Source: Telmatospirillum siberiense (lineage in GTDB: Bacteria; Pseudomonadota; Alphaproteobacteria; Rhodospirillales; Magnetospirillaceae). Taken from it: 64,000 bases of DNA. Of the stretch, positions 54,819 through 56,789 are shown piece by piece. Position 1 is the stretch's first letter, and each line of letters starts with the position of its first letter. The translations under genes were made by a program, and so were the position numbers. Under the pieces are notes generated by a model that did not search any database, was not told the origin of the DNA, and saw only the letters and a list, made by a program, of their open reading frames with translations. The stretch covers positions 1-64,000 of the forward strand of contig NZ_PIUM01000010.1 of assembly GCF_002845745.1 (NCBI RefSeq). Reading direction: 5' to 3'.

Positions 54819-56789
54819 ATGGCTGGAATCGCAGTGCAGCGCGACAAATTGGCGCTGAGCGGCGTTTACGAGATTTCGAAACTGCTGTCCTCGCCGGCGC
54901 GTCTCGAGGCCAAGCTTTCCGGCGTGCTGTCCCTGCTTTCGAGTTTTCTCGACATGCGCCATGGGTTGGTCGCGCTGCTGCGTCCCGACGGCACGCCGGA
55001 GACTGTGATCGGGTCCGGCTGGCGGGAAGCCGCGGCAAAACGGACGCTGGACGAGGTGCCGGAGCAGGCCATCGGGCAGATCGTCACCACCCGGATGCCG
55101 TTGGTCATCCGCAACGTCGCCAACGATCCGCTGTTCGCCGACTGGCCCCCGGCCGAGCAGACGGTGGACGGCACCATCTGTTCCTTCATCGGCGTGCCGA
55201 TCAAGAGCGAGGAACAGGTCTCCGGAACGCTCACCATCGATCGCATCGGCGACAGCCAATCCCAGATCTGGCTCGATGAGGATGTGCGATTCCTGACAAT
55301 GGTCGCCAATCTGATTGGACAATCCGCACAATTGCACGCGGTGGTCGCTCGCGACCGCGAACGGCTGATTCTTGAACAGCATCGTCTGGCCAAGGCGCTC
55401 TCCGACACGTTGCCCGACCGCAAGGCCACCAAGATCAAGGGAATCGTCGGCGACAGTCCGGCCATCCGCGATGTGCTGGACAAGGTGGGCATCGTGGCGC
55501 GCACCAATTCGACGGTGCTGCTCTACGGCGAATCGGGAACCGGCAAGGAACTGTTCGCCCGGGCCATTCACGATCTGTCGCGCCGCAAGGATGGTCCCTT
55601 CATCAAATTGAATTGTGCCGTCCTGCCCGAAGGCGTGCTCGAATCCGAATTGTTCGGCCATGAGAAGGGGGCCTTCACCGGTGCCGTGTCACTGCGCAAG
55701 GGGCGTTTCGAACTGGCCGATGGCGGCACCTTGTTCCTCGACGAGATCGGCGAGATCTCTCCCGCCTTTCAGGCTAAGCTGCTGCGCGTGCTGCAGGAGG
55801 GAGAGTTCGAGCGGGTGGGCGGTGCCAAGACCCTCAAGGTCGATGTCCGGCTGGTATGCGCCACCAACCGCAATCTCGTCGACATGGTGTCGCAGGCCAG
55901 CTTCCGGGCCGACCTCTATTACCGCATCGCGGTGGTGAACATCACCCTGCCGCCCTTGCGCGACAGGCCGGGCGACATCCCCCTGCTGGCCAATGAATTC
56001 CTGGTCCGTTTCAACAAGGAGAACGGCACCAAGCTTACCCTCGAGCAGGCCGGGTTGGCGGTTCTCGCCGCCTGCCATTTTCCCGGCAATGTGCGCGAAT
56101 TGGAGAACTGCATCCGCCGCACCGCCACTTTCGCCAGCGGGCAAAGCATCGGGGATCTGGATTTCGCCTGTCGCAACGACGTCTGTCTGTCGGCGACCTT
56201 GTGGAAGGGGCCGGCCAAGGAGCCGGAGCAAAGGCCGGGGTTCACCCCGCTTCCGGTGCTCGATCGTGCCTCGGTTCCCTTTTCGCCCGAGGCCCCCCGG
56301 CGAACCGTGCCCTCGAAATTGATCCGCCCGCCGCGACCGGCCTCGGCGGGACCGATATCGGGCGGCGTCGACGAAGCCGCTCCCGCCGCCATGCCTGTAT
56401 CCGGGGATGAGCCGGTGGAGTTTCCGGGGGCGTCGTCGGACGAGCGATCGGAACGCGACAGCCTGATCTCGGCGCTCGAAGCGTCGGGCGGCGTCAAGGC
56501 CAAGGCCGCCCGCCTGCTGGGGGTCACGCCACGCCAGATCGGTTACGCCTTGCGCAAACACAATATCGCCGTCCATCGTCTGCGCTTCTCTCCCGCCGCC
56601 ATCGGCGGGGAGGAAGAGCCCGCCCCCAGCGTCGAGGCGGCGGGGGAAATCTCGGAACGGGACAACCTGATCCAGGTGATGGAGTCGTCGGGCTGGGTGA
56701 AGGCCAAAGCCGCCCGGCTTCTGGGCGTCACCACCCGCCAGATCGGCTATGCCCTGCAAAAGCACGATATCAAGGTCCGGAAATTTTAA
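54819..56789 (+). CDS. nifA: nitrogen fixation activator NifA with two tandem C-terminal HTH units
   Basis: The 656-residue product has an N-terminal GAF domain, a sigma-54 AAA+ domain (GESGTGKE, GAFTGA loop, LFLDEIGE) and a C-terminal DNA-binding part. After the AAA+ domain four cysteines are spaced C-X11-C-X19-C-X4-C (start AACHFPGN, end CRNDVC), the pattern of oxygen-sensitive alphaproteobacterial NifA. The Fis-type helix-turn-helix is duplicated: residues 544-588 and 612-656 are near-identical units (both VKAKAARLLGVT-RQIGYAL), joined by a 23-residue linker. Normal NifA has one. Start ATG 54819 follows AAGGAGGGCGGTG. It should activate the -24/-12 promoters of nifH, iscA and nifB. Confidence 0.96.
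   Translation: MAGIAVQRDKLALSGVYEISKLLSSPARLEAKLSGVLSLLSSFLDMRHGLVALLRPDGTPETVIGSGWREAAAKRTLDEVPEQAIGQIVTTRMPLVIRNVANDPLFADWPPAEQTVDGTICSFIGVPIKSEEQVSGTLTIDRIGDSQSQIWLDEDVRFLTMVANLIGQSAQLHAVVARDRERLILEQHRLAKALSDTLPDRKATKIKGIVGDSPAIRDVLDKVGIVARTNSTVLLYGESGTGKELFARAIHDLSRRKDGPFIKLNCAVLPEGVLESELFGHEKGAFTGAVSLRKGRFELADGGTLFLDEIGEISPAFQAKLLRVLQEGEFERVGGAKTLKVDVRLVCATNRNLVDMVSQASFRADLYYRIAVVNITLPPLRDRPGDIPLLANEFLVRFNKENGTKLTLEQAGLAVLAACHFPGNVRELENCIRRTATFASGQSIGDLDFACRNDVCLSATLWKGPAKEPEQRPGFTPLPVLDRASVPFSPEAPRRTVPSKLIRPPRPASAGPISGGVDEAAPAAMPVSGDEPVEFPGASSDERSERDSLISALEASGGVKAKAARLLGVTPRQIGYALRKHNIAVHRLRFSPAAIGGEEEPAPSVEAAGEISERDNLIQVMESSGWVKAKAARLLGVTTRQIGYALQKHDIKVRKF

Follow-up and report, generated by a model that had tools for sequence, protein, structure and literature searches.

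A NifA with two C-terminal helix-turn-helix units beside head-to-tail TGT enhancers in Telmatospirillum

Here we describe a NifA protein of Telmatospirillum siberiense, a peat bacterium, denominated NifA2, which carries two Fis-type helix-turn-helix (HTH) units in tandem at its C-terminus, together with the nif promoters that surround its gene. As judged from the sequences compared, the tandem is real, rare and conserved, and it stands beside a changed enhancer layout, in which TGT half-sites follow one another head to tail at 9 bp; the doubling of the HTH may be causally linked to this layout.

The window (the whole stretch of DNA analysed, 64,000 nucleotides) lies on contig C1 of the T. siberiense genome (G000 in our set; 6,200,830 bases, 81 contigs); the published draft of strain 26-4b1, with 81 scaffolds and 6,202,994 bp, is described as carrying two FeMo- and one FeFe-nitrogenase operon (PMC5786683). 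The island in the window comprises nifHDKEN, iscA-, nifU- and nifS-like genes and nifB, names that rest on the first-pass annotation and on reading of the translations rather than on a family search of each gene. Elsewhere in the genome we found a canonical one-unit NifA and a second Mo-nitrogenase cluster; NifA2 and cluster 2 for the window, and NifA1 and cluster 1 for this second system, are labels coined in the present analysis. On another contig (G000:C81, ~110386-113236) a nifH relative (60% identical) adjoins a NifA-like activator scoring under the nifA cut-off, which fits the published FeFe-nitrogenase.

The NifA2 protein and its two HTH units

The nifA2 gene (54819..56789, + strand) is an uninterrupted reading frame of 656 amino acids, with AAGGAGG upstream of its ATG. 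The protein scores 758.6 bits against the NCBIfam model TIGR01817 for NifA (cut-off 528.85), and its Pfam matches follow the NifA domain order: GAF (residues 29-168), Sigma54_activat (209-375) and HTH_8 from 543 on. No AraC-type fold was found, HTH_8 being the sole DNA-binding Pfam match at E 0.01. After the AAA+ domain we read in the sequence the C-X11-C and C-X4-C cysteines (CHFPGNVRELENC and CRNDVC), which we take to be the mark of oxygen-responsive alphaproteobacterial NifA and, presumably, tied to oxygen sensing. From its gene neighbourhood and the sigma-54 boxes nearby, NifA2 is predicted to activate sigma-54 transcription of nif genes. It departs from the usual NifA form, in which a single C-terminal HTH_8 is present (a trait outside the definition of the TIGR01817 model): that one HTH is normal, as the first-pass annotation had claimed, is borne out by the single unit of 29 other aligned NifA C-termini and of a further relative, G028.

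Pfam HTH_8 matches two stretches of NifA2, and each half alone lies far above the cut-off of 22 bits, far beyond chance. Unit 1 (residues 544-588; 56448..56582, + strand) reaches 46.3 bits scanned alone and unit 2 (residues 612-656; 56652..56786, + strand) 44.7 bits. The earlier mapping of residues to bases is correct; between the units lies a poorly conserved linker of 23 codons (56583..56651, + strand), with 36% amino-acid identity across 22 aligned codons. A direct-repeat search returned the tandem as a 127-nt family (56448-56574 and 56652-56778, offset 204 nt); Tandem Repeats Finder at score 30 did not list it. The units had been called near-identical: they are indeed homologous Fis-type duplicates, but only 77% identical over the 127 nt and, with 31 of 43 amino acids in common, 72% identical as protein.

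The same arrangement is found in an independent Telmatospirillum MAG (MAG_CA127; G001), whose tandem NifA is a 78% identical protein. Between the two genomes, the first units are alike at 33 of 43 residues and the second units at 34, whereas cross-unit identity is 31 and 29 of 43 inside one genome and 27 and 29 between genomes. Like units are therefore closer than cross units, which places the duplication before the divergence of the units and before the split of T. siberiense from MAG_CA127; most simply, the doubling would have arisen once, before these two lineages parted. A shared substitution touches on the preceding step: K is present in all four tandem units at a position occupied by Q in 62 of 63 other distinct unit strings, as matched by pattern in the loci examined (GWVQ to GWVK; only locus L099 departs from this), which suggests that the Q-to-K change predates the duplication.

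Compared with the MAG_CA127 orthologue, dN/dS is 0.21 for unit 1 (43 codons, bootstrap 0.06-0.52) and 0.13 for unit 2 (43 codons, bootstrap 0.02-0.30), values that are rough since dS is near 1; none of 1000 bootstraps gave a dN/dS of 1 or more for unit 1 or for unit 2. By this estimate purifying selection keeps both HTH units. The recognition helix is RQIGYAL or RQVGYAL in each unit, so both probably read TGT; the stretch between the end of the first HTH and the beginning of the second unit measures about 30 residues.

Distribution of the tandem and the NifA tree

The tandem was found only in T. siberiense (G000:C1) and MAG_CA127 (G001:C395), both among 61 genomes of relatives, its own included, and among 317 genomes of the order, 94 of which match at least one NifA-type unit at E 1e-6. 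With the 119-aa tandem as query and full-length matches counted, the class sample (any match in 22 of 385 genomes) and the phylum sample (44 of 398) returned T. siberiense alone, and 200 genomes sampled from another order, 29 of them with some match, gave none over the full length; these samples are partly made up of the same genomes, and such counts could overlook a weak second unit. The tandem as a common form of NifA is thus not supported by any of these samples. A codon- and spacing-restricted DNA pattern run over genome contigs, a search that may not have covered the window's own genome, gave 4 stretches; the one on JARLJB010000188.1 (Telmatospirillum sp. MAG_CA127) is the tandem, and the other 3 had no HTH in the frames displayed.

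In a tree of 21 chosen rows (of 34, with the HTH region excluded for most rows, and with G028 and the C77 copy of G006 added), the tandem pair groups with the NifA proteins of G004 (same genus), G006, G007 and G028, which we call NifA2; the other side, NifA1, holds the other NifA of T. siberiense, MAG_CA127 and G006, plus that of G002, and the split between the two has support 100/99. A first tree of 32 rows, made without G028, G018, the second G006 copy (C77) and one anf locus, gave the same grouping (100/100), with a long-branch warning that included G007 with G004. The nearest relatives G004, G006, G007 and G028 have no second unit, so the doubling is not standard even there. NifA1 coexists with NifA2 in the genomes of T. 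siberiense, MAG_CA127 and G006, and none was seen in G004, G007 or G028, the latter two being drafts 97% and 92% complete. G007 also has a second NifA2-like gene (L148, G007:C365, 8244-9348), cut by the contig end and with its AAA+ and HTH parts in different frames.

Half-site layout of the cluster-2 promoters

Three promoters of cluster 2 were scored. The nifH enhancer (29371..29411, + strand) contains ACA at 29371 and 29380, a 9-bp direct repeat, followed by TGT at 29387 and ACA at 29399 and 29409, and its ACA-ACA-TGT spacing is kept in MAG_CA127; the direct repeat lies at -89/-80 and -88/-79, in the two tandem genomes, from the sigma-54 box (TGGCACGAGCCTTGCT; 29460..29475, + strand). The operon with the iscA-, nifU- and nifS-like genes (hereafter isc) has its enhancer at 54534..54576 (- strand), where the + strand TGTs at 54534 and 54543 form a 9-bp direct repeat located at -52/-43 from the box (TGGCACAGCCTTTGCT; 54478..54493, - strand), at the same positions in both tandem genomes. 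The nifB enhancer (57091..57168, + strand) consists of three 9-bp direct-repeat pairs and one TGT-N10-ACA (TGT 57091/57100; TGT 57120 with ACA 57133/57142; TGT 57157/57166), ahead of a sigma-54-like box with 2 mismatches (TGGCATGCGGCGTGCA; 57218..57233, + strand; TGGCATGTGACGTGCA in MAG_CA127). The nifB enhancers of the two genomes align without gaps over 88 bp, the direct-repeat half-site columns being identical in 18 of 18 cases vs 35 of 70 for the others; these 18 columns (six half-sites) were chosen as half-sites in both genomes, and when half-sites are defined from T. siberiense alone, six of seven are kept.

The first-pass annotation had described an unusual site arrangement in this island, made of odd dyads. 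The sites themselves are there (TGT-N10-ACA at 57120-57135 before nifB, TGT-N9-ACA at 29387-29401 before nifH, and TGT-N20-ACA, offset 23, before the iscA-like operon), and the arrangement is unusual, but its regularity lies in the 9-bp head-to-tail TGTs, absent from that annotation and first detected in this follow-up, and not in the spacings N9, N10 or N20. Likewise, an exact TGT-N10-ACA occurs only at nifB among the scored nifH, isc and nifB upstream regions, but at four other places in the window.

Other elements of these intergenic regions deserve mention. Two sigma-54-like boxes of the window, at 54765 and 43309, have no 9-bp direct repeat upstream. The former (54765-54780; 1 mismatch) is separated from the ATG of nifA by 38 bp and also lacks a TGT-N10-ACA pair upstream; it falls in a gap of the MAG_CA127 alignment, and conserved self-regulation of nifA through it is not supported. 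The gap between nifA and nifB holds a 173-bp dispersed repeat (56884-57056) with inverted copies of a 10-bp repeat of the CACAGATGA type; the genome contains 54 matches to it, of which 11, the stretch itself among them, exceed 100 bits, and the aligned gap of MAG_CA127 has no counterpart. Divergent to nifH, a small protein that is receiver-like by eye is encoded at 28811-29446 (- strand), with relatives at the same place in MAG_CA127 and G004.

To quantify the layout, TGT and ACA trinucleotides were counted by offset in the 150 bp upstream of sigma-54 boxes. In the six tandem-cluster promoters (nifH, isc and nifB of two genomes), 10 pairs were seen at direct offset 9 vs 0.55 expected, and none of 300 shuffles equalled the top count at any of the offsets 4 to 30; each tandem genome alone gave 5 direct 9-bp pairs vs ~0.3 expected (0 of 300 shuffles). 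These counts are small, come from partly hand-picked promoters and, the two genomes being related, are not independent. The offset was first spotted by eye in promoters that were later scored; the all-offset scan, the cluster-1 promoters and G006 serve as checks. By contrast, 43 NifA1-linked boxes of relatives (with TGG and at most 1 mismatch, in chosen loci) peak at inverted offset 13, that is TGT-N10-ACA (40 seen vs 0.84 expected); the 9-bp direct repeat makes no peak there (7 pairs in 6 boxes, behind the offsets of 7 and 20 bp), and 13 of the 43 show neither type of site, which makes it probable that some do not belong to nif promoters.

The matched promoters of cluster 1 in the same two genomes point the same way: all six nifH, nifB and isc promoters carry two TGT-N10-ACA and a single one (T. 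siberiense isc) a direct repeat, vs 6/6 with the 9-bp direct repeat and 2/6 with TGT-N10-ACA, the usual NifA enhancer type, in cluster 2 (Fisher p 0.015 and 0.061, respectively, treating the related genomes as independent). Both genomes were also scored at their matches to TGGCAYRNNNNTTGCW (44 of 45 sites, L179 being out): a 9-bp direct repeat precedes all 4 cluster-2 sites vs 4 of 40 others, which include the cluster-1 promoters and the box at 54765; one of those 4 is the cluster-1 isc promoter. The motif YTGTYCGNNYTGTYCG was rejected as a genome-wide regulon marker, with 14 matches in T. siberiense (two in NifA2 promoters) vs 4 for the reversed control, 12 in G004 and 14 in G002.

The one-unit relatives separate the layout from the number of units. 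Their promoters were hand-picked as preceding nif genes, as were those of the tandem genomes, where both nifB boxes carry 2 mismatches; the boxes at 54765 and 43309 of the window, L150 3468, L153 4708, L106 10036, L147 999, L107 7323, L148 4908 and L104 11939 (which has a direct repeat and lies antisense in nifB) were left out, and 14049 of G004 was kept, though it may not be real. In G006, which has one unit, direct repeats occur in 3/3 picked promoters (5 pairs), and a row of five TGTs precedes its nifH; the promoter counts are 1/5 in G004, 0/3 in G007 and 1/1 in G028, three genomes that together have TGT-N10-ACA in 8/9 picked promoters. Sorted by coexistence with NifA1 (G000, G001 and G006 vs G004, G007 and G028; three genomes on each side, including two close relatives), direct repeats are present in 9/9 picked promoters with NifA1 vs 2/9 without; in unpicked boxes of the cluster loci (at most 1 mismatch), the figures are 8/12 vs 2/12 for direct repeats and 2/12 vs 9/12 for TGT-N10-ACA. 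On these counts the 9-bp layout follows NifA1 co-residence better than HTH unit number. The layout also has older roots, as G004 shows ACA-N7-ACA before nifH and TGT-N10-ACA-N6-ACA before isc.

That two units fit these unusual sites, as had been proposed, is true in that they co-occur, but the one-unit NifA2 of G006 has the same repeats, so HTH doubling is not required for the layout, and the idea that direct repeats are a consequence of it is weakened. It is probable that the sites changed before the protein did, or that their layout goes with the presence of NifA1 in the same cell; the doubling, by which one chain gained two readers, seems to have followed later.

A proposed mode of action and its alternatives

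The best explanation as a whole, which we hold tentatively, is that a conserved tandem HTH reads the 9-bp direct repeats and so separates two NifA circuits. Each unit, with its NifA recognition helix kept, would still read TGT, and one NifA2 chain would hold two same-orientation half-sites about one helical turn apart, the ~30-residue spacing being enough in principle to reach a half-site of the same orientation 9 bp away. The isolated DNA-binding domain of a Gluconacetobacter NifA is described as monomeric in solution and a weak binder (PMC10590331), so linking two is an obvious route to affinity, and tethering them would favour direct repeats over a mirror-image site. Such an intramolecular reading is plausible, and its use would be to keep two NifA circuits apart in one cell. 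The half-site layout would have moved first, in NifA2 lineages beside NifA1, and the doubling would then have strengthened it in Telmatospirillum. Taken as a full history, in which the enhancer grammar switched from mirror-image to head-to-tail and the HTH then doubled, as evolved insulation of two Mo-nitrogenase NifA circuits, the scenario is possible but rather unlikely.

Somewhat less probable than intramolecular reading of the repeats is that the second unit acts through avidity only, raising affinity for any TGT and offsetting decayed dyads without favouring direct repeats; the 9-bp repeats would then be an older feature of NifA2 promoters. The repeats of one-unit G006, the scarcity of full dyads in the tandem promoters (2/6) and the weak binding of the isolated domain (PMC10590331) are in keeping with it, but avidity would tolerate many offsets, whereas the 9-bp offset is exact and its position is kept between both tandem genomes. 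We regard as unlikely that one unit is decaying or repurposed, for instance as a spacer or a protein contact, so that NifA2 would work, as its relatives do, through one functional HTH. A tryptophan conserved in 65 of 67 distinct unit strings is replaced by G (GGVKAK) in unit 1 of T. siberiense, and the constraint on unit 1 is somewhat weaker (0.21 vs 0.13, with overlapping intervals); yet unit 1 scores 46.3 bits, keeps RQIGYAL in both tandem genomes and has dN/dS below 1 in 1000 of 1000 bootstraps. Footprints read from sequence do not name their protein, and the direct repeats might be the sites of another regulator and thus be uninformative on NifA2; this is less likely still, for the half-site core is the TGT of NifA and lies within 130 bp upstream of sigma-54 boxes, the direct repeats of nifB are interleaved with TGT-N10-ACA, and NifA is the sole DNA-binding regulator recognised by eye among the window genes looked over from 28 kb on. 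An assembly artefact is rejected, nothing having been found in its favour, as the units differ at 23% of bases and the independent MAG has the same arrangement.

Compared with known systems, NifA2 combines familiar traits and a new arrangement. It resembles proteobacterial NifA (TIGR01817) in its GAF domain, its AAA+ domain with a GAFTGA loop, the Cys motif after it, the Fis-type HTH with RQIGYAL, the nif cluster and the sigma-54 boxes, but differs from it in having two HTH_8 per chain and in the enhancers of its own cluster, which are mostly 9-bp TGT direct repeats and not TGT-N10-ACA. In activators of the AraC/MarA type, two HTH units of one chain occupy successive major grooves on the same DNA face, a working mode similar to that proposed here; their fold and family are unrelated, NifA2 having tandem copies on an AAA+ activator. 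AnfA, a further paralogue, has one HTH; in Rhodobacter capsulatus this sigma-54 activator is described with a site code of its own, TAC-N6-GTA, distinct from that of NifA (PMC7294313) and still a dyad, unlike the direct repeats of NifA2. Two NifA proteins in one genome are reported for Mesorhizobium loti, Bradyrhizobium DOA9 and R. capsulatus, pairs compared here by that feature alone; in Telmatospirillum each paralogue is accompanied by a nif cluster of its own, and the enhancer layouts of the two clusters differ. A literature search that reached few subscription journals returned no report of a two-HTH NifA or of direct-repeat NifA sites.

Binding as dimers to palindromic targets is the mode described for this family of sigma-54 activators (PMC10590331). 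A two-unit NifA beside direct-repeat enhancers, if true, would show that this rule can be broken. The layout suggests a way for two near-twin NifA switches to stay apart in one cell, and NifA1 and NifA2 lend themselves to testing how paralogous activators that share a recognition helix avoid cross-talk. NifA2 and its promoters might also serve as an orthogonal NifA/promoter pair in the engineering of nitrogen fixation.
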